51,845 nucleotides of DNA from Microcaldota archaeon (GCA_028867335.1 JAGWGN010000005.1:1-51845); one strand, 5' to 3'; numbered from the stretch's first letter, positions 9,640-19,713 are shown. Numbers and translations: made by a program. Notes: generated by a model from the letters alone, not told the origin.

Positions 9640-11697
9640 ATGTGGTATAAAATGCGCCCCTCAATGCCGTTAGCACTACTTTTTCTTTTTTTTACCGTTG
9701 CTCCAGCGCCGATTTTTGCACAGACCGCAGCTAATGTGCTGGCAAGCGTAACCGTCCTTCCAAGCTGCAGCTTCGCCCTATCGCTCAACTCCCTTGCTTC
9801 GTACACAAGGATAGGAAGCCTGACGATGAGCTACAGCGTATACACAGTTCCCCCTACATGCACTCTGGATCCGCTTCTCGGATCTTTTACGATAACCCAG
9901 GTTAGCAACAGCAACACCGTTATAACCCAGAGCCTCTCAGCAAACAACGTAAACCCTACTCCGCAGACAAACAACGTGATATTCAAGACGAACACGCTCA
10001 CCAACACAACCTACACGGCGACCGTTAGCTTCACGGTGAACGGATTCACAAACAGCATCTCAAACAACTTCGTTTTGCTCAATCCGCAGAACCTCAGCAT
10101 AGTGAGCCTAAGCGCCCCGTCCTCGGTCACTGTCGGATCCCCGATAACGATAAACGTCAACACGCTCAACTTCGGGCAGCTCGCATCAGGCGCGATAACG
10201 CTTTACGTCAACATCATCGGACCGGGCTCTTTCTCTTACACCTACAACGAACCTTCTCTCTCGCCAGGCCAGAGTTCAGTATACTCGATAACAATACCTG
10301 ATGCGACGGGCGTAACGGGCAGCTACACCATCAATACGTTTGCAACATACACTGTGGGCAACAACCTCAACATGTCCAATAGCCGCACGGCTTCATTCGC
10401 CGTTGTTCCCTCCCCCTCGCCCGGCGGCGGTGGGGGCAATCCTCCAAACACCAATCCAATAACCCCGATCCCCTCGCTCCAGTTCACCACGGCTCCTCTA
10501 TACACTCCAGTCTCATCCGGCACTCCCGTCCTTTCCCAATTGGGCTTCAAGAACACAGGGACCCAGCCGGAGATAGTCAAGCTGAGCGTACCTGCAGTAT
10601 TCAACAACCTCATAAACCTCTCCACGTCGTCCCTATACATTCTTCCCGGGCAGCAGCTGACGGCCCAGCTATTTGCAAACCCCAACTCCTCAGTGGAGTC
10701 AGGGACGTACATCGTGCCGCTCACCGTGAATCTAAACTCCAGCGGAACTCACACAGTGCAGGTGGAGTACTTCGCATTCAACCTCTACGTCCCCACAAAC
10801 GACAGCATTCAGGTGATCAATCAGGTTGCTCTGGTAAATAACACAGACAGCGCCAGGGGAATAGTCCAGATACACAACCCGACCTCAAAGACTGCGACAA
10901 ACATAACCCTGCAGACCCTAATTCCGCTCGCCGCGGCAGACAGCGTCTCCGACATAACAACCACCGGGCTTCCCGCGAGCGTCGTCGACCCGCCGGGATT
11001 CTACACCATAACTTGGGACATAGCAAGCATCAGCCCGGGGACTGCAGTTTATGGCTACTACACCATAAGCAAGCCGAGAAGCCAGAAGCTTTTGCAGGCA
11101 ATACAGAACATAATAGCAACCCCATCTGTTCCGGGACAATCAAGCATACTAAAGGTCGTCAACATCGCCTTCCCGACATTCTACACAAACTCAAGCGGCA
11201 ACATAGAGGTGTTTGCCCTCTACACGGGGACAATTCCAAAGCCGGTCTCCTTCACGCTGACCGCACCTTCCGGAATAAAGATCACAAACTCATCCCAGAA
11301 TATCGAGGCCTCCCCCAACCAGCTGCTAAGCCCTCTCTTCAACATAACGACCAACTCAAACCAGGGAACCTACCTTCTAAATCTCTACATCAACACGCAG
11401 GGGTTCAACGCGAGCTACACCTTGCCCCTCATAGTGCTAAACAAGCCGATCAACTCTGAAGGCGGCGGCACATCTTCCCCAATGACGACATTCACAACCA
11501 CGATCAGCCCATTCCCTACCGTAAAGATTGCAGGGATAACCCTGCCGTTCGGAGGGGTCGGCATAATAATAATCGTCATGGGGGTTGCGGTCTACTTCCT
11601 AAGCAAGCACCTCTCAAAGCCAAAGTACAGGAGGGAGACCTCGGAGCAGCTCGTGCGCCTCAGGGAGCAGATAAAGAGGAGTGAGGATGAGCAGTAA
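9640..11697 (+). CDS. Large secreted surface protein with C-terminal membrane anchor
   Basis: About 685 residues. It has an N-terminal signal peptide (hydrophobic 'LALLFLFFTVAPAPIFAQ'), then a long extracellular beta-rich Ser/Thr/Asn region with many N-glycosylation sequons, a Pro/Gly hinge near 10405-10460, and CARDB/NEW3-like beta-sandwich repeats. It ends with one membrane helix ('GVGIIIIVMGVAVYFL') and a charged cytoplasmic tail. Just after the signal the sequence 'NVLASVTVLPSC' resembles the strand-plus-Cys motif of the small secreted proteins at 17158 and 18462. ATGs at 9640 and 9652 and a TTG at 9625 are candidate starts. The 3' end overlaps the first MinD-like gene, so they are probably one operon. 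Confidence 0.8.
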   Translation: MWYKMRPSMPLALLFLFFTVAPAPIFAQTAANVLASVTVLPSCSFALSLNSLASYTRIGSLTMSYSVYTVPPTCTLDPLLGSFTITQVSNSNTVITQSLSANNVNPTPQTNNVIFKTNTLTNTTYTATVSFTVNGFTNSISNNFVLLNPQNLSIVSLSAPSSVTVGSPITINVNTLNFGQLASGAITLYVNIIGPGSFSYTYNEPSLSPGQSSVYSITIPDATGVTGSYTINTFATYTVGNNLNMSNSRTASFAVVPSPSPGGGGGNPPNTNPITPIPSLQFTTAPLYTPVSSGTPVLSQLGFKNTGTQPEIVKLSVPAVFNNLINLSTSSLYILPGQQLTAQLFANPNSSVESGTYIVPLTVNLNSSGTHTVQVEYFAFNLYVPTNDSIQVINQVALVNNTDSARGIVQIHNPTSKTATNITLQTLIPLAAADSVSDITTTGLPASVVDPPGFYTITWDIASISPGTAVYGYYTISKPRSQKLLQAIQNIIATPSVPGQSSILKVVNIAFPTFYTNSSGNIEVFALYTGTIPKPVSFTLTAPSGIKITNSSQNIEASPNQLLSPLFNITTNSNQGTYLLNLYINTQGFNASYTLPLIVLNKPINSEGGGTSSPMTTFTTTISPFPTVKIAGITLPFGGVGIIIIVMGVAVYFLSKHLSKPKYRRETSEQLVRLREQIKRSEDEQ

Positions 11698-12490
11698 ACC
11701 CTATATAATCAGGATCTCCTCCCAGAAGGGCGGCGTCGGCAAGACGACAGTCGCGGTAAATCTGGCGACAGCGCTCAGCTTCATCGGCAACAAGGTGCTG
11801 CTTATCGACTCCGATTTCATAAACCCCAGCATCGGATTCCACATGGGGGTGGAGAACACCAACACCGGAATCAGGTCGGTTCTGATGGGCAAGTCGACAC
11901 TTGAGAATGCCGCGCTCACGCATGCGCCTACGGGAATCAGGGTGCTTGCAGGCGAGATCCACGCGAAGACCCACACCCCCACAAAGTCGCAGCTCGATAG
12001 GCTCTTTAGCGAGATAAACAAGACGACATACAACTTTGTGCTGGTCGACACCCCTCCGGGCTTCTTCCCTGAGGACGACCTCAAGGCTTTCGGCGAGGCG
12101 ATAATAGTCACGACGCCGGAAATGTCCTCCGCGACCGCAGCCACAAGGCTCGCTAACCACTACGACCGGATTCACCTAAAGCACGGGCTCGTAATGAACC
12201 GCAGGAAGAACAAGAAGTACGAGCTGCACATAAAGGAGATCGAGGAGATGTACGACGGGAACATACTTGCGGTCCTACCTGAGGACGAGGTGATACCCAC
12301 AAGCGTCGCCGAGCACATTCCGGCATACATTGTGGATCCTAAGTCCGAGTTCTCAAGGGGCATCAAGGAGCTGGCCAACAAGTACACGACAAAGTTCGGG
12401 TTCGAGTACGACCTAAAAAAGGATCCGGACTCTGGCTTCTTCTCAAGAATAATCGCCCGAATAGTGGGGCTCTTCAAGAGAGGCAATTAG
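11681..12490 (+). CDS. MinD/ParA-like ATPase (first of a tandem pair)
   Basis: 269 residues of the MinD/ParA P-loop family: deviant Walker A 'KGGVGKTT' near the N-terminus, 'LLIDSDF' and 'FVLVDTPPG' (Walker B). The last 25 residues include an amphipathic basic-hydrophobic helix ('FFSRIIARIVGLFKR') like the membrane-targeting helix of MinD. Such ATPases place cell-surface or division machinery at defined sites; archaeal MinD homologues position archaella, pili and chemoreceptors in haloarchaea. It starts inside the end of the surface-protein gene (ATG 11681 or 11687) and is followed with no gap by its paralogue, so the coupling to the surface genes is strong. Confidence 0.85.
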   Translation: MRMSSKPYIIRISSQKGGVGKTTVAVNLATALSFIGNKVLLIDSDFINPSIGFHMGVENTNTGIRSVLMGKSTLENAALTHAPTGIRVLAGEIHAKTHTPTKSQLDRLFSEINKTTYNFVLVDTPPGFFPEDDLKAFGEAIIVTTPEMSSATAATRLANHYDRIHLKHGLVMNRRKNKKYELHIKEIEEMYDGNILAVLPEDEVIPTSVAEHIPAYIVDPKSEFSRGIKELANKYTTKFGFEYDLKKDPDSGFFSRIIARIVGLFKRGN

Positions 12491-13264
12491 ATGGCGCAGC
12501 CCTACACCGTAAGGATCTCCTCCCAGAAGGGCGGCGTCGGCAAGACCACCATCTCGGTAAACCTTGCAGTCGCGCTAAAGAGAATCGGGCACAAGGTGCT
12601 GATAGTCGATGCCGACTATGTCAATCCGGTCGTCGGCTTCCACCTCGGGCTCGAGGAGATAAACAGGGGCTTTAGGTCGGTGATGCTTGGGAAGGCAAAG
12701 CTTACAAACTCGGTTTCGATACACTCTCCAACCGGCCTTCATGTGCTGGGCGGGGAGATGACGCAGAAGATGTTCGAGCCAAACCAGGCGCAGATAAGAA
12801 GATTCGACAACATGCTGAAGGGTACCGCATACGACTTCATAATAATCGACACCCCTCCCGGATTCTCGACGCAGAACTTCTTTGGCTACTCTAACGAGGC
12901 GGCCATAATAATCACCCCGGACCTTCAGGCCACGGCAAGCGCTATGCGCCTATCCCAGATCTTTGATAGGCTTCACCTAAAGCACAACATAGTCCTAAAC
13001 CGGGTGAGGAGCAGAAGATGGGAGCTGAATGTTGGCGAGATAGAGGAGACCTACGGGAGCAAGGTCTCCGCAATCTTCCCGGAAGACGACACAGTTCCCA
13101 TGAGCATCGCCGCCCACATTCCCGCATTTCTCTTCAACAGAAGAGCGCCGTTCTCAAAGGGGATGGAGAGGTTCTCAAGGGGCTACTCGCTTAGGACAGA
13201 GGTGCGGCCAAATCCGCCCGGAAGCGGCATAATAGGATGGCTCAGAAGGGTCATCGGATACTAG
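12491..13264 (+). CDS. MinD/ParA-like ATPase (second of a tandem pair)
   Basis: 257 residues, similar along its whole length to the preceding gene (by eye roughly 45% identical), so the pair arose by tandem duplication. It has 'KGGVGKTT', 'LIVDADY' and 'FIIIDTPPG', and again a C-terminal amphipathic helix ('GIIGWLRRVIGY'). Its ATG directly follows the stop of the first copy. The two may form a heterodimer or act on opposite faces of a positioning system. Both keep the residues for ATP binding, so neither looks decayed. Confidence 0.85.
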   Translation: MAQPYTVRISSQKGGVGKTTISVNLAVALKRIGHKVLIVDADYVNPVVGFHLGLEEINRGFRSVMLGKAKLTNSVSIHSPTGLHVLGGEMTQKMFEPNQAQIRRFDNMLKGTAYDFIIIDTPPGFSTQNFFGYSNEAAIIITPDLQATASAMRLSQIFDRLHLKHNIVLNRVRSRRWELNVGEIEETYGSKVSAIFPEDDTVPMSIAAHIPAFLFNRRAPFSKGMERFSRGYSLRTEVRPNPPGSGIIGWLRRVIGY

Positions 13265-13339
13265 GTCATTTCCCTCGTACGTTGTCTGTAAGGTATAAAT
13301 ATAGCTTTTTCATACAATATAAGGACAGCCTGGTATTCT
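13265..13339 (+). promoter_or_regulatory. Promoter of the large adhesin-like gene
   Basis: TATA-like GGTATAAATATAG at about 13292-13304, some 40 bases before the ATG at 13340. This suggests the adhesin-like gene is transcribed on its own as well as from upstream. Confidence 0.45.
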
Positions 13340-16300
13340 ATGAACTCAGAAAGCCGCTTCTACAGTTTTTCGCTAGCCCTGCTTATCTTTTCCGCGGTGC
13401 TTCTCCAATCAAACCCCCTGCAAACCTTTCATCTCGATTGGCCCCTGACAACACTAAACACAACCTCCACAACCACCACATCAATTCCATCGACAACCAC
13501 CTCCTCAACATCCACCTCCTCCACAACCACCACATCAATTCCATCGACAACCACCTCCTCATCATCCACCTCATCATCATCCACCTCATCAACATCCACC
13601 TCCACAACATCAATTTCAACGTCCACGCCACCCACAACACAGACAACCACAATATCGCAGCAGCTTAACGCGAGCCTTGTCAACTCATTGTTTTCTGGCA
13701 ATGGGACATCGCAGTTATCCGCTTTCTCAAGCAATCAGTTGAACGCAACTCAGGCGTCAGACGACCACCATGCGATGGCCCTGATCACCTCGCTCAAGGC
13801 CCATGGTGCCACAATGCATGCGGTGCAGCTCAACATGACATATGGAAAAATATCGCAGAAGTTGGTTCCAGTAGGGGCGGGCAGCAGGCTCCACTACTTC
13901 AATGTAAACGGTAGCAATGCAACCATCTACAACATAACGATCACAAAGGCGGTGCCAGACCTTCGGGTGAGCATTGGAGGATATGTAATAAATTCCTCCA
14001 CAAATACCATAAACCTGCTTGGTTCTTCGTACGTAGTAAATGGCAGCACAATCCATATGCTCCCAGTATACGCGCTGAACGGAAGGGTGGACAGCCGCGT
14101 TCTTTACAACAACCTACTTCCATACACCTACAAGCTCTACATCGGAAATAAGCTTGTTTCGTCAACAAACGTGACGCTCGGCCAGTTTGGCATTCCCTTC
14201 AATCAGCAGGGCATCCCGGCCGGCACGGTCACAAAGATTGTCTTCGAGACCACCGGAAACGCCAATTATACCCCTGTTGACCCAACTGTGTTCTACACCG
14301 TGGCGAACGCCGCAGTGACAATATCCACAGCCACGACCATGGCGAGCGATCTTGTATGCGGCAGCCTGACCATAAATGCTGGCCAGACATTGACAACCAA
14401 CGGTTTTAGTATACTGTGCAATGGCACAATAACAAACAGCGGCACAATTTTGGCGGGCGCAGCAAACAATGGGGGTACTGTTCCCAGCGGTATCCCTGCG
14501 GCCCTTTCATCTTCGTACGGCGGCTCGGGCGGAGGGGGAGGGTCTACCCACGCCAATGCCGGAACCGGCAGCACCCCTGCGGCCCCGACAATGAGCGCAT
14601 CAAACATCCAGTCCTGGTATGCGAGCGGGTTTAACACCATTCTTGCCGGCAACGGCGGCGGAGGAAGCGGGACCAATGCCGGCGCTTCGGGGAGCTATGG
14701 GGTGTACATACAGGCCAATAAAGTAACTGCCGGCACCATAGACGCGCAGGGATCGGCAAGCAGCTGCAGCTCCACCTCCTCCACAAACGCCGCGGGCGGC
14801 TCGGGCGGCGCCACAATCGCATCGGGTGGGGCCGGAGCAACCGGCGGCGGAGGCAAGAAGTCGGCAAGCGGCGGCGGAGGCGGCGGCGGAGCGATAATGA
14901 TAGCGTATGGGATTGGGGGCTATACTGCGGGCACATACTCTACAACAGGTGGCTCGGCAACAACAAGCTGTAGTGGCACGGGCGGCAACGGCGGAAGCGG
15001 AACCACCGGCGGCAACAGTGCGTACACATTCAACTTTGCAAGCAGTGCTCCGATAGTCGTCTTGCCGAAGCCGCTCAATTCGCTGATTGCAACTCCCAAC
15101 CCCCCATTCATGAGCAACTCCGTAATCGATGTGGGCCAGTACAGCGCGTTCAATACGCTCATAAGCAACGGCATCGCCCCGTACCAAGGGAACTGGATAT
15201 GGGATCCTCCTATGTCGCTCACATCGTCCTCCCCATTCAACACGGTCACCGCCAACATACTTAGCGGAGGCCTGATAAACTCGCTTTTGAGCATAAATGC
15301 GTTTTCTCCGCAGAATGCGATATTAACCTTTAACTCCGTGCAGTACGCCCTCTCATCTTTAGGGGCCAACTCGATCTACGGGGTGTGGAACTTCAGCGGC
15401 AACTATGTTGACTCCATAAGCAACTTCCTCTACCCACTTTCAAATTCCACCTTCACGATAAACCCCGCCTTCGCGCTAAACAGCTTTGCGGTCTCCAACT
15501 TACTAATAGACCAGGGCCAGACTCAGCTCCTCTCCGCGAAAATCTCCGGGGGGACGGACCCGTACTCCTTCAACTACCTTGTCTACAACTCTGCCGGATT
15601 GGTGACAAACTCCCTGTACACCGTCTCCACAGGCAGCGGCCTTGGCCTTGACGGGTCCAAGGACACCGGCTACATTGGGACAGCAGGGACCTCCTTCACC
15701 GTCTCGACCCTCAGCACTGCCAGCGCAAACGATCTGATTGTCCTCTACATCTACTCCAGCGGATGCCCTGCGCCAACGATAACCGACACCGCAGGGCTCA
15801 CATGGTTCAAGCGATTCGACAACGGCGCAAACCAGCTCTTCAGCTTCTACGCCTATTCCCCCTCCCAGCTCAGCGGCGACACGATCACAGTAAGCTACGG
15901 CGCCTGCTCGACAACGCAGCACGATGCGATCGCTTTAGGCATCAGCAGCCCAAGCCCGCTTACCCCATTCGATTCGAACATTAACATCCCCTCACACGTC
16001 ACCGGGATCTCAAGCACCGCCGGAAAGTCGTTTGTGACCACTACCCACTCCTATGACTTTTTGCTCTCGATGCTTTTGGTGAACCATATCACCGACGCGA
16101 TTACCCTGCCTGCAGGTTTCAGCACGATAAGTGCCGCGACCACCGGAAACCTGCTCTATCTTGGGTACAAGGTCGTCAGCGCCACGCAGGCAAACGCGGA
16201 GTACGACTGGACCCTTACCTCGGATAGTTACCAGACAATAGGGGATGCCGCATTCGGGGACATCTCCTCAAACACCTTTGCGCTCACGCAGTCAAGTTCA

Positions 16301-17095
16301 TGGGGGAGCGGGCCGTTCACATACAATCTTTTCGTCACCGACTCGGCGACAACTCCTGTGGTGGTCTCCAGCCTGAGCAACACCTACGGTGCAAACACCG
16401 CACTCGGCACTCCGACGATCGCCCCTGCCTCGGCGCAGGCGAACGTGGTCGGGGATAAGGTTGCATTTATCGCGACCCTGCCGGGCGGCGGGATCGGGAC
16501 GGGCCCGTACACCTACAACTTCATACTCACAAATACGATCACCGGCGCCCAGATTGCAAACCAGCTCTACGCCGGCGTGTCATCGACGTCAAACAGCTTC
16601 ACCTACACTTTTGTGTCCGGAGACCTCGGCCAGACCGAGCATGCAAACGTTTTGATCACAGATTCGGCAACGACACAAGAGTCCTCAAACTCCGTCTACA
16701 GCGGCACCATAACCATAGGGTCCTCCGCATGCTCCATCTCGCTTAGCAACACGCTGATCGACTTCGGGAACCAGAACCCCTCGGTCTCCACAGCCGTGAG
16801 CAACGTGGTTACCGACACGAATTCGGGCAGCGCATCCGCATACCTCTACGTCTACGGCAGCAACTGGGTCGGATCCTCCATAACGACAAACTTCTTCGTC
16901 GCAAACACGATCTGGAACCCTGTTTCATCTGGTCCAGATGTCGGCAATGCCCTGACGCTCTCCTCGGCAGGGGCAAACACGCTGCTTCTTCTTCCGGCAG
17001 CAGGATCTAACGGGATCTACTTCGGCGCAAAGGTTCCTTCCGGTCAGATATCGGACTCCTACTCCCAGAATATCGTGATCTTCAACGTCTGCTGA
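13340..17095 (+). CDS. Giant secreted adhesin-like protein with mucin-like Thr/Ser stalk
   Basis: 1251 residues. In order: an N-terminal signal peptide; a Thr/Ser-rich stalk (nt about 13440-13660) probably O-glycosylated; a beta-rich domain with sequons; a very Gly-rich loop region (nt about 14500-15030); a lectin-like jelly-roll-type segment with 'SFTVSTLSTASANDLIVLYIY' (nt about 15680-16280); two Ig-like repeats; and a C-terminal module (nt about 16725-17095) shared with the small secreted proteins downstream. That module starts with a Cys ('SACSISLSNT'), contains 'NTIW' and 'IYFGAKVPSGQ', and ends with Cys as the last residue. No membrane anchor follows, so it is secreted or held by partner subunits. 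The likely role is adhesion or a fibre tip, by inference. Confidence 0.75.
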   Translation: MNSESRFYSFSLALLIFSAVLLQSNPLQTFHLDWPLTTLNTTSTTTTSIPSTTTSSTSTSSTTTTSIPSTTTSSSSTSSSSTSSTSTSTTSISTSTPPTTQTTTISQQLNASLVNSLFSGNGTSQLSAFSSNQLNATQASDDHHAMALITSLKAHGATMHAVQLNMTYGKISQKLVPVGAGSRLHYFNVNGSNATIYNITITKAVPDLRVSIGGYVINSSTNTINLLGSSYVVNGSTIHMLPVYALNGRVDSRVLYNNLLPYTYKLYIGNKLVSSTNVTLGQFGIPFNQQGIPAGTVTKIVFETTGNANYTPVDPTVFYTVANAAVTISTATTMASDLVCGSLTINAGQTLTTNGFSILCNGTITNSGTILAGAANNGGTVPSGIPAALSSSYGGSGGGGGSTHANAGTGSTPAAPTMSASNIQSWYASGFNTILAGNGGGGSGTNAGASGSYGVYIQANKVTAGTIDAQGSASSCSSTSSTNAAGGSGGATIASGGAGATGGGGKKSASGGGGGGGAIMIAYGIGGYTAGTYSTTGGSATTSCSGTGGNGGSGTTGGNSAYTFNFASSAPIVVLPKPLNSLIATPNPPFMSNSVIDVGQYSAFNTLISNGIAPYQGNWIWDPPMSLTSSSPFNTVTANILSGGLINSLLSINAFSPQNAILTFNSVQYALSSLGANSIYGVWNFSGNYVDSISNFLYPLSNSTFTINPAFALNSFAVSNLLIDQGQTQLLSAKISGGTDPYSFNYLVYNSAGLVTNSLYTVSTGSGLGLDGSKDTGYIGTAGTSFTVSTLSTASANDLIVLYIYSSGCPAPTITDTAGLTWFKRFDNGANQLFSFYAYSPSQLSGDTITVSYGACSTTQHDAIALGISSPSPLTPFDSNINIPSHVTGISSTAGKSFVTTTHSYDFLLSMLLVNHITDAITLPAGFSTISAATTGNLLYLGYKVVSATQANAEYDWTLTSDSYQTIGDAAFGDISSNTFALTQSSSWGSGPFTYNLFVTDSATTPVVVSSLSNTYGANTALGTPTIAPASAQANVVGDKVAFIATLPGGGIGTGPYTYNFILTNTITGAQIANQLYAGVSSTSNSFTYTFVSGDLGQTEHANVLITDSATTQESSNSVYSGTITIGSSACSISLSNTLIDFGNQNPSVSTAVSNVVTDTNSGSASAYLYVYGSNWVGSSITTNFFVANTIWNPVSSGPDVGNALTLSSAGANTLLLLPAAGSNGIYFGAKVPSGQISDSYSQNIVIFNVC
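13464..13561 (+). repeat. Direct repeat (44 bp, 54-bp period) coding for the Thr/Ser stalk
   Basis: A 44-base stretch at 13464-13507 recurs without change at 13518-13561, giving an 18-residue period of Thr/Ser/Ile-Pro-Ser. Degenerate (TCA/ACA/TCC) triplets continue to about 13620. It is in frame, so copy-number change would lengthen or shorten the stalk. Confidence 0.8.
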
Positions 17096-17118
17096 GTCCA
17101 TTGCAGTTCGTAGAAAGG

Positions 17119-17127
17119 TTTATAAAT
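17119..17127 (+). promoter_or_regulatory. TATA box of the small secreted protein gene
   Basis: TTTATAAAT about 31-39 bases before the ATG at 17158, which would give a leader of only a few bases. It supports an own promoter and the start at 17158 rather than at 17101. Confidence 0.5.
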
Positions 17128-17157
17128 AATATCTTTATAATATATCTTGGCGACAAC

Positions 17158-17676
17158 ATGAATTTCAAAACGACCATAGTTAATGCGGGTATTATCGCAG
17201 TCATTGCTGCAATGATGCTAAGTGTCACATTCTCAATAACGGGGCTTTCCTTTTCTGCTAACTCCGGTTCGACAAACGTTGTCGCTACGGTAAACGTCCA
17301 GACCACATGCGTTCTGGCAGTCTCAAACACAGCTGTGAACTTCCTCACAGTCAATCCCGGGGCAAGCACGGGAGTCGTCAATGCAGTCGCAGACACAAAC
17401 AACGGAAACGTTGGCGCATACATCTGGATCTCGGGAAGCAACTGGATTGGGGCAAACATCGCAATTAACTTCTTTGTAACAAACACGATCTACTCCAACG
17501 CGCTCAGCTCCGAGGGGGCAGGATTCCTGTTCAACTCCGTGGGACTCGCCACAGGTAACACTGGAATACTGGTATCTACTGCAGGGACAAACAACCTGTT
17601 CTTCGGGGTAAACATTCCGGTGGGCCAGACGGCAAACGCGTACACACAGAACATTGTGATAAACAACGTCTGCTGA
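17158..17676 (+). CDS. Small secreted protein with the shared Cys-bracketed beta module (possible fibre subunit)
   Basis: 172 residues from the ATG at 17158. A hydrophobic signal or anchor segment ('AGIIAVIAAMMLSVTFSI') is followed by a strand ending in Cys ('VVATVNVQTTC'), then a beta-sandwich module of about 125 residues with 'TNNGNVGAYIWISGSNW', 'INFFVTNTIYSNA' and 'LFFGVNIPVGQ', ending 'NIVINNVC' with Cys as the last residue. Only the two bracketing Cys are obvious, so a disulfide closing the module is likely. The layout (own promoter, small, repeated next to a large tip-like protein) fits a major fibre subunit, comparable in idea to TasA-like archaeal bundling pili. That is inference. 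Confidence 0.7.
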   Translation: MNFKTTIVNAGIIAVIAAMMLSVTFSITGLSFSANSGSTNVVATVNVQTTCVLAVSNTAVNFLTVNPGASTGVVNAVADTNNGNVGAYIWISGSNWIGANIAINFFVTNTIYSNALSSEGAGFLFNSVGLATGNTGILVSTAGTNNLFFGVNIPVGQTANAYTQNIVINNVC

Positions 17677-17685
17677 AGTGTTTAG

Positions 17686-18465
17686 ATGGCGATTAGTAAG
17701 GCTTCGTTCTTTGTTTTTCTACTATCCCTTATTTTAACCTCCGGAATCTACCATGCCCAGCTTGGACAGGCTGCTGGGGCATTCATAATCAACATGAGCA
17801 TCGGCAGCACTGCTGAGAGGAACTGGTCCCTTGTCAACACAGGCGATGTGCCCCTTGGGTACAAGATAATCCTCCCTGAATTCACCCCTGTGCCCAATGC
17901 GACTGCCCCTATAGTGACTGCGGTTCCGATGAACGGGACCATTCCCGCGCACACAAGCGTGACCATCAAGGTAATAATCAATCTGCCGTACTTAAACAAC
18001 AAGGCCGGAATAAGGTGGGACAGCGTGATCGGCTCGGTTGCGCAGCCATTGAATTTCACCCAAGGGACAGGCGGCGCGCAGATACAGGGAGGGGTGGGCA
18101 AGGAGATCGTAATAAGGGCGCAGCCTCCTACGATACCACCGCTTGAGCTAGCCGCCGTGGTAATTGCAGCCGTGGCCGTGATAGGCGGAGCCATATACTA
18201 CTACAAGTTCAAGTTCCTGCCAAAGTACAACAGCAAGGAATCCAAGGCGGCGAGGGCCAAGGCAGCAAAGGAGAAGGCGAAGGAGAAGCTCTCCAAGATG
18301 GAGGCGAAGCTGAAGGTGGAGAGGTCCAAGTTACTTGCGCAGGCTCGCGCCATAAAGGGCTCAAGGGGCACAACCGCCTCGCAGAGAAAGACAGGGGTGA
18401 AGAAGTCCAAATCAAAGGCAAAGGGGGGCAGGACCTCGAGGGGAAGGAGCGCCAGGAAGAAGTGA
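17686..18465 (+). CDS. Single-pass membrane protein with secreted domain and very basic cytoplasmic tail
   Basis: 259 residues. It has a signal peptide, then a beta-rich outer domain (about residues 30-145) with N-glycosylation sequons, one membrane helix ('LELAAVVIAAVAVIGGAIYYY', about 152-172) and an intracellular tail of about 85 residues. The tail begins as a charged Ala/Lys coiled-coil-like helix and ends in a Lys/Arg/Ser/Gly-rich stretch. Such a tail could bind nucleic acid, acidic proteins or phospholipid; I cannot say which. The gene sits between two copies of the Cys-bracketed secreted protein, and its TGA stop overlaps a GTG start for the next one, so it is probably the membrane partner of that structure. 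Confidence 0.7.
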   Translation: MAISKASFFVFLLSLILTSGIYHAQLGQAAGAFIINMSIGSTAERNWSLVNTGDVPLGYKIILPEFTPVPNATAPIVTAVPMNGTIPAHTSVTIKVIINLPYLNNKAGIRWDSVIGSVAQPLNFTQGTGGAQIQGGVGKEIVIRAQPPTIPPLELAAVVIAAVAVIGGAIYYYKFKFLPKYNSKESKAARAKAAKEKAKEKLSKMEAKLKVERSKLLAQARAIKGSRGTTASQRKTGVKKSKSKAKGGRTSRGRSARKK

Positions 18466-18991
18466 GGTTACGGCGCCTGCTAATACTCTATCCGTCAACT
18501 TTCTTCTAGCATCCCTTATCGCAACCTCTGCCTTTTTCTATGCGTTCTATTTAATCGGATTCGATCTGCTTGCCAACTCCCAGGCTAGCGTTTCGGCAGC
18601 GGTGAGCGTGTCTAGCTCTTGCACCCTGCAGGTTTCAAACACCGCAATCGCCTTCCCCTCAACCGCTGCGGGAAACAACGCACCGCTTGCAAACACGGTC
18701 TCGGCGACCAACAACGGGAACGTAGAGGGATACATCTGGATCTCGGGAACCAGCTGGGCCACAAGCGCCAACTCAGCCATAAACTTCTTCGTTACAAACA
18801 CAATCTTCTCAAACGCGCCCAACCAGAACGCGGCGGGCTACCTTGCGAACGCACTGACCCTTAGCGCTTCCAACACCGCCGTCCTGATCCCTGCCATAAC
18901 CTCAAACACCCTCTACTTCGGGGTGAACATACCTGCGGGCCAGGCATCAAACACCTACACGCAGAACATAATCTTCCAGACTGTGTGCTAG
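18462..18991 (+). CDS. Second small secreted Cys-bracketed protein, apparent -1 frameshift near 18503
   Basis: Paralogue of the gene at 17158. The intact module runs from about 18560 to 18991: 'VSVSSSC', 'NNGNVEGYIWISGTSW', 'LYFGVNIPAGQ', and a final 'QTVC' with terminal Cys. In its frame there is no ATG, GTG or TTG before 18602, yet the hydrophobic leader is encoded upstream. A GTG at 18462, overlapping the stop of the previous gene, opens a good n-region (MRLRRLLILYPSTFF) that stops at TAG 18507-18509. A -1 shift at TTC-TAG (18504-18509) joins it to the leader 'LLASLIATSAFFYAF'. This may be a mutation, a sequence error or recoding. The domain shows no other decay. Confidence 0.6.
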
Positions 18992-19038
18992 GTGCACATT
19001 TTTATATAATCCAATCGTAACAATCTCAAGGTAGTTTA
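18992..19038 (+). promoter_or_regulatory. Promoter of the GT2 gene
   Basis: TTTTTATATAATCC at about 18998-19012 is a clear TATA box about 30 bases before the ATG at 19039. Confidence 0.5.
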
Positions 19039-19713
19039 ATGCCAAACCCATATGTCTCAGTCGTGATACCGACCTGGAACGAGAGGGGGAACATCGGCCG
19101 CGTCATCCCAGCGATAAGACGCGTGCTCTCAAAGAACACCCACGAGATAATTGTGGTCGACCGCCACTCAAAGGACGGCACGGCGCAGATTGCGAAGGGG
19201 CTTGGAGCAAGGGTCATATACGATGACATCGGAAAGGGATCCGCCCTGCTCAGGGGTCTTGCAGCGGCGAGGGGAAAGATACTGATCTCGATGGACGCGG
19301 ACCTCTCAAACGAGCCTAGGGAGCTTAGGCTTCTGATTGCAGGCATCGAGACGGGATACGACCTCTGCATGGGGTCACGATTCATAATCGGCGGGGGGAG
19401 CGACGACATGCCGGCGCTGAGGAGGTTCGGCAACAAGGTCTTCATCCTCCTGGTCAATGTCCTCTTTGGCGCAAACTACACCGACCTCTGCTACGGCTAC
19501 CGCAGCTTCAGGCGCGGAGCGCTGCAGAAGCTTTCGCTACGCGAGAGGGGCTTTGGGATCGAGACCGAGATAAACATCAAGGCGATAAAGAGGGGCCTGC
19601 GGGTCCTTGAGGTGCCGAGCATGGAGAAGAGGCGCGCGGCAGGGGAGGGGAAGCTCAACACGTTCCGCGACGGGTACGTGATACTCTCAACGATCTTCAG
19701 GAACATCGGATAG
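19039..19713 (+). CDS. GT2 family glycosyltransferase (dolichyl-phosphate hexose synthase-like)
   Basis: 224 residues with the GT-A fold of family 2: 'VSVVIPTWNERGNI' at the N-terminus, nucleotide-sugar site 'EIIVVDRHSKDGT', metal-binding 'SMDADLS' and 'CMGSRFI'. It resembles dolichyl-phosphate mannose/glucose synthases, which load a sugar on the lipid carrier used for protein glycosylation. It lacks the C-terminal membrane helices seen in some relatives. The usual 'DDGS' reads 'DRHS', a small departure. Its place directly after the surface proteins suggests it serves their glycosylation. The donor sugar is not determinable. Confidence 0.8.
   Translation: MPNPYVSVVIPTWNERGNIGRVIPAIRRVLSKNTHEIIVVDRHSKDGTAQIAKGLGARVIYDDIGKGSALLRGLAAARGKILISMDADLSNEPRELRLLIAGIETGYDLCMGSRFIIGGGSDDMPALRRFGNKVFILLVNVLFGANYTDLCYGYRSFRRGALQKLSLRERGFGIETEINIKAIKRGLRVLEVPSMEKRRAAGEGKLNTFRDGYVILSTIFRNIG

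Follow-up and report, generated by a model that had tools for sequence, protein, structure and literature searches.

The mechanism by which DPANN archaea that depend on a host become attached to it is still an open question. Here, we asked whether a block of co-oriented genes from a Microcaldota archaeon (GCA_028867335.1, JAGWGN010000005.1:1-51845) could explain how the tiny Micrarchaeota hold on to theirs. The window, by which we mean the whole analyzed stretch of 51,845 nucleotides, is contig C54 of a 0.96-Mb archaeal genome. Five conserved gene families in it look like candidate fibre parts: a tip, a repeating unit, a membrane base, a membrane-bound helper and a positioning ATPase. We lean slightly towards reading the locus as encoding a Sec-exported surface fibre or short fibrillum, built of pilin-like modules joined by strand donation and pinned by disulfides. 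Micrarchaeota contact Thermoplasmatales hosts, and the available part of one cryo-electron tomography report describes filaments where Ca. Micrarchaeum harzensis (strain A_DKE) meets its host, without naming their proteins and with a host origin discussed by the authors (PMC8975820). Pili-like links have been seen in acid mine drainage (PMC4110969). The Mia14 genome paper, in its accessible portion, describes large surface proteins with CARDB/PKD domains and a pair of type IV pilus systems, and no system of the present kind (PMC5498576).

All genes named in a preliminary description of the window are present and co-oriented. Its observation of the genes, a shared module and their order was confirmed by gene coordinates and by conservation in relatives, in a stronger form than it had stated. 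The features are as follows.

9640..11697, plus strand: ANCH, with a signal peptide, an N-terminal donor-strand-like motif followed by a Cys, a string of immunoglobulin (Ig)-like domains and one transmembrane helix.
11681..12490, plus strand: MinD-like ATPase A, with Walker A KGGVGKT and a C-terminal amphipathic helix; it overlaps the end of ANCH.
12491..13264, plus strand: MinD-like ATPase B, with Walker A KGGVGKT and a C-terminal amphipathic helix.
13340..17095, plus strand: ADH, an adhesin-like secreted protein of 1251 amino acids with a Ser/Thr-rich N-terminus and no donor-strand motif.
16730..17092, plus strand: the C-terminal pilin-like module of ADH, from Cys1131 to Cys1251 (last residue).
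17121..17133, plus strand: a TATA-box-like stretch, tttataaataata, about 25-35 bases 5' of the SM1 start codon.
17158..17676, plus strand: SM1, a small module protein of 172 amino acids with a signal peptide, the donor-strand motif VVATVNV and a module from Cys51 to Cys172.
17686..18465, plus strand: TAIL, with a signal peptide, an MSP/ASH/PapD-like Ig domain, a transmembrane helix and a K/R-rich cytoplasmic tail.
~18485..18991, plus strand: SM2, the second small module protein, whose frame is open 5'-ward with no ATG, GTG or TTG start.
19039..19713, plus strand: a GT2 glycosyltransferase, with AglJ / dolichyl-phosphate hexose transferase as its nearest models, below cut-off.

Searches of Pfam and NCBIfam gave no family for SM, ADH or ANCH apart from weak Ig-type matches. 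DUF4402 matched two of the 22 module proteins (best 0.0024), too weakly to be used. The TATA-box-like stretch suggests, from its sequence, that SM1 may have a separate promoter.

The shared module is the feature from which the argument starts. SM1, SM2 and the C-terminus of ADH, the three copies in this genome, align with 39 invariant columns that include the first Cys and the last-residue Cys, which bears out the earlier claim of a Cys-bracketed module common to the two small proteins and the adhesin. In relatives, the module nearly always forms the C-terminal end of a large protein or the whole of a small one; each locus has one to four small proteins, and in many relatives two modules are fused into one protein. 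Both cysteines were present in 92 of 100 complete modules from relatives, neither in eight and only one in none (Fisher p 5e-12). Because the two are kept or lost jointly, they almost certainly pair as a disulfide inside the module, for which this covariation is strong evidence. Nearly all of the eight modules that lack both stand first in a fused pair. In the first modules of some fused pairs (L115, L099, L057, L058, L059 and L079), GNVIYL replaces the lost cysteines, and these could be a distinct basal or capping module.

Two further observations concern the module genes themselves. In A_DKE, the final ~75 bases of ADH and SM are nearly identical (L128:16090-16180 and 16680-16770), which suggests gene conversion between modules. 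SM2 (window 18460-18620) and its relative at L095:17725-17850, from two species, have no in-frame ATG, GTG or TTG 5' of the module. The SM2 frame is +1 to the TAIL stop (AAGAAGTGAGGTTACG / AAGAAGTGATGCTACG), and translation might use an ACG start, a GTGA restart with frameshift, or a +1 frameshift that fuses TAIL to SM2.

We then analyzed the conservation of the gene set. Relatives came from a DNA scan with alignment and comprised Micrarchaeota metagenome-assembled genomes, the complete Ca. Micrarchaeum sp. A_DKE genome and a Mancarchaeum metagenome-assembled genome; a scan of genome contigs with ATPase B as a single protein gave no match. Gene order was read in 40 neighbourhoods and then in 37 named loci. 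The comparison with relatives proposed in the preliminary description yielded a recurring order in which ANCH comes first, followed by a MinD-like ATPase or two, ADH with its C-terminal module, SM (one to four, or a fused pair) and TAIL. This arrangement is kept across two families of one Micrarchaeota order and in named genomes including Ca. Micrarchaeum A_DKE (NZ_CP060530). In 44 of 45 loci, the MinD gene lies directly 3' of ANCH, and the two frames often overlap. TAIL, to which the preliminary description gave no clear role, follows SM within three frames in 47 of 51, making it the most constant neighbour of the small subunits. Among 53 loci, no further neighbour family was widely shared, and the set holds no usher and no secretion ATPase. 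In three genomes (G037, G043 and G048), the genes are dispersed to separate loci with every part kept, and ANCH-MinD and SM-TAIL are still paired. ANCH and MinD also occur on one contig labelled Marsarchaeota (L102), all others being Micrarchaeota, through either a mislabelled bin or transfer. With the ADHN profile, the body of ADH seemed to be spread over the loci; this was not used, as it probably reflects low-complexity and repeat sequence.

Modules were found in 32 of the 60 relatives searched and the ATPase in 33: 28 genomes had both, four and five had one alone, and 23 had neither (p 6e-8 without ancestry correction). Across 196 genomes of the phylum, modules and ANCH occurred together in 47, modules only in six, ANCH only in 20 and neither in 123 (p 1e-22, likewise uncorrected). 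Nearly all modules belong to a single order, and the few exceptions come from other families in the same class. The preliminary description had named relatives that keep the module genes and lack the ATPases as evidence against its reading; one well-sampled genome, G013, is such a case and G025 possibly another, both considered below. The gene set is real and conserved, and it is not described in the literature searched.

We utilized AlphaFold2 to predict the structure of a natural two-module protein, L112, from a 47-row alignment. The model is a pilin-like sandwich with high scores (predicted local distance difference test, pLDDT, 94.8; predicted template modelling score, pTM, 0.83). In module 1, the N-terminal strand region (residues 5-17; 1-19 overall) forms no strand, whereas the equivalent region of module 2 (145-156) forms a paired one; the last strand has 12 residues in module 1 and six in module 2. 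An N-terminal strand lying on its own module would show in both copies, so the simplest reading is that it packs on the module in front, as strands do in strand-donating pili, and a strand-linked assembly of modules is fairly probable. Closed domains with no strand between subunits, which the preliminary description had named as evidence against a fibre, are not what this natural tandem gives. A Foldseek search against solved structures returned as its best match CsuE, the two-domain tip adhesin of the archaic chaperone-usher Csu pilus (E 1.2e-6, TM-score 0.47), together with a CfaE-CfaB fusion (7.8e-6) and self-complemented CsuA/B (2.4e-4, TM-score 0.52 on target). CfaE and LpfD also matched. 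Other Ig-like sandwiches were interspersed among these entries, and the matches included the WxLIP-WxL complex 9i25. Profile searches of all PDB chains with the module (E up to 10) gave chance matches only and no sequence relative.

The N-terminal strand also gives the parts a polarity. Just C-terminal to the signal peptide, SM and ANCH have in common an alternating-hydrophobic motif (VVATVNV in SM1, NVLASVTV in ANCH). It was found in 28 of 47 SM and 33 of 41 ANCH proteins, versus one of 37 ADH and one of 43 TAIL; the controls gave 31 of 667 other open reading frames and, among other proteins that have a hydrophobic run at the N-terminus, four of 117. The strand-plus-Cys motif previously proposed for ANCH was upheld, with a loose strand pattern in 33 of 37 sequences versus about five in shuffles. 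In the ANCH model, the motif stretch is disordered, and a fold search with this model found only generic Ig-like domain strings (HYDIN, alpha-2-macroglobulin) and nothing specific. Since ADH has the module without a free strand, it would be the tip; since ANCH has the strand and a transmembrane helix without the module, it would be the base. The motif distribution thus predicts the order ADH (tip), SM (shaft), ANCH (base).

On the fibre reading, the free N-terminal strand of each subunit would complete the module of the subunit in front. ADH would form the tip, SM proteins the repeating unit of the shaft, and ANCH the membrane-spanning base. TAIL, a membrane-tethered PapD-like Ig protein, may hold or cap modules before assembly. 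The MinD-like ATPases would be bound to the inner face of the membrane by their amphipathic helix and would use the conserved ANCH tail to determine the places on the cell at which bases gather. Attachment to a host archaeon would be the likely purpose.

Several points weigh against this reading. No filament has been observed or isolated. The pairing partner of the strand was deduced from the secondary structure of a single-chain model, and covalently joined modules could make a plain beta hairpin with no exchange between chains. Agreement with pilins is modest by TM-score (0.47-0.52), and the matches also include further Ig-like sandwiches. The strand-motif pattern was picked after inspecting these same sequences, and the co-occurrence p values are uncorrected for shared ancestry. 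In one genome, G013 (92% complete), SM, TAIL and ADH are present, and neither ANCH nor MinD gave a match. G025 may be a second such case, but its ADH is located where a contig begins; G012, likewise cut at a contig, and G023, 73% complete, are also module-positive candidates without the ATPase. Conversely, ANCH-MinD is also found in genomes that lack modules, where it adjoins other large surface proteins.

The role of TAIL bears on the main alternative to a fibre. Its ectodomain matches ASH/MSP Ig domains (HYDIN at 7.5e-11 by profile; Cep192, CFAP65 and OCRL-type Pfam families), and almost all members have a K/R-rich tail of variable length after the transmembrane helix. PapD was not among the 25 families matched by most TAIL members. 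PapD chaperones have an Ig fold and donate a strand to the protein that they bind. WxLIP, another Ig protein, does likewise, so TAIL is by analogy most likely a tethered chaperone or cap. The main rival is a non-polymeric adhesin complex like that of WxL clusters, in which modules dock on a strand-donating tethered Ig protein (TAIL, perhaps ANCH), the small proteins serve as a platform, ADH protrudes and no fibre forms. WxL clusters have the same gene set (a small domain-only protein, a large protein with the domain C-terminal and a one-pass Ig protein), and there the Ig protein is predicted by AlphaFold2 to place one of its strands in the domain (PMC10599100). The fold matches include complex 9i25, and TAIL comes after SM in almost all loci. 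As to the DUF916 plus DUF3324 one-pass protein of WxL clusters, WxLIP_PGBD matched three of 28 TAIL proteins, albeit weakly (best 2.5e-5), with DUF3324 not among the listed families. Nevertheless, the WxL domain had no match in any of the 22 module proteins searched (E up to 1), and a free N-terminal strand on SM and ANCH would be superfluous for docking on TAIL. Moreover, the strand of module 2 is paired in the tandem model and that of module 1 is not, and the presence of at least two SM modules in many genomes suggests a chain. We regard a docking complex of this kind as a serious but, on balance, unlikely explanation.

Another possibility, which we consider doubtful, is that the MinD pair works only with ANCH and that the adjoining module cassette belongs to an adhesin system of its own. 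Modules are lacking in 20 of the 67 genomes that have ANCH, and ANCH in six of the 53 that have modules, as two independent systems would allow; the strong co-occurrence, the adjacency kept across families and the strand motif common to SM and ANCH argue otherwise. It is very improbable that the proteins are parts of an S-layer or cell coat with modules as lateral lattice contacts. They are secreted, ADH is large and Ser/Thr-rich, and A_DKE has an S-layer according to the available part of its description (PMC8975820); yet modules are missing from 143 of 196 genomes, many of similar completeness, which is unexpected for a basic wall protein, and the fold matches include pilins and adhesins. 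Known S-layers are not, to our knowledge, served by a MinD of their own. A type IV pilus was rejected, as the conserved set contains no secretion ATPase. T2SSE genes do occur in 40 of 40 genomes searched, at other places and not among the conserved neighbours, so the proposed fibre would not be the sole possible appendage.

Returning to the fibre, we examined its putative positioning part. Both ATPases can be assigned by sequence to the MinD/ParA superfamily, each having a KGGVGKT Walker A motif and a predicted C-terminal membrane helix; this amphipathic helix is kept in relatives. Their nearest solved relatives are archaeal MinD proteins (1ion, 1hyq), and they score 144.6 and 117.8 bits with the archaeal MinD model TIGR01969, below its curated cut-off of 201.75. 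Because G013 keeps the module genes without the ATPase, the latter looks like an accessory for placement and not an assembly motor. ANCH ends in a short conserved cytoplasmic helix of the pattern RY..R...L...REQIKR, with REQIKR at its end, and this helix is likely the partner of the MinD-like ATPase. In Haloferax, archaeal MinDs affect where motility structures are placed, as far as the available parts of two reports go (PMC11588486, PMC11621097). Two variants of the ATPase genes were seen. At L130:5743-7128 (same as L076), MinD and a small module protein share one uninterrupted frame of 461 codons, which contains an ATG ahead of the signal peptide and would reflect either gene fusion or loss of a stop. 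At G020:C40:40191-45033, six MinD-like genes are clustered, five of them co-oriented in a row and two with an in-frame stop.

GT2 did not keep the place it had been given as the glycosylation enzyme of the set: it lies outside the conserved genes, is near the operon only within the genus and has its own upstream TATA-like element (tttatataa), and we rejected it as a core member. The roles of subunit, tip, anchor and placement ATPase proposed alongside it gained support from conserved order, structure prediction and motif distribution.

Should the fibre reading be right, these would be strand-linked pili with a dedicated positioning ATPase, another pilin-like architecture in archaea. More tentatively, they might form a Micrarchaeota-specific class of archaeal attachment fibre, with disulfide-pinned, strand-linked pilins in tip-shaft-base order, no usher or secretion ATPase and a base placed by its own MinD, that constitutes the contact between symbiont and host. 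The locus in the A_DKE genome (NZ_CP060530) offers candidate genes with a clear order of parts and hence a direct test of the attachment question.

Among known systems, chaperone-usher pili (archaic Csu and CFA/I, with CsuA/B, CsuE, CfaE and CfaB) resemble the locus in their Ig-like pilin fold by Foldseek, a large tip adhesin (here a proposed one) whose C-terminal domain is a pilin domain, small subunits of the pilin type, a free alternating-hydrophobic N-terminal strand and an Ig protein of the wider PapD-like kind. Unlike them, the locus has no usher, soluble chaperone or outer membrane; its Ig protein is anchored in the membrane and has a basic tail in the cytoplasm, it encodes a MinD ATPase, its subunit termini would be joined by a disulfide, and profile searches found no sequence similarity. 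The archaeal threads of Sulfolobus acidocaldarius (Saci_0406) are likewise archaeal and Sec-exported, with type-1-pilin-like subunits and donor strands, and the accessible text describes a putative cap protein, Saci_0405, and no ATPase, membrane base or large tip adhesin (PMC9715654). However, solved chains of threads and of TasA-type bundling pili gave no sequence match in the PDB profile searches (E up to 10), and threads were absent from the 50 best fold matches of the module.

WxL domains bind peptidoglycan, and we know of no peptidoglycan in these archaea. The WxL clusters of Firmicutes share with the locus a small domain-only protein, a large protein with the domain at its C-terminus, a one-pass Ig protein and predicted strand donation (PMC10599100), but they have no MinD and no defining cysteine pair, and the locus has no WxL match. 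Positioning ATPases of the ParA/MinD type serve surface organelles in bacteria, CpaE/TadZ and FlhG/FleN being examples. Together with archaeal MinD2 and MinD4, these resemble the locus in pairing a MinD-type ATPase that has a membrane helix with a surface structure. The present family differs in being divergent, below MinD cut-offs, and its partner would be a one-pass Ig protein instead of a secretion machine or chemosensory array.

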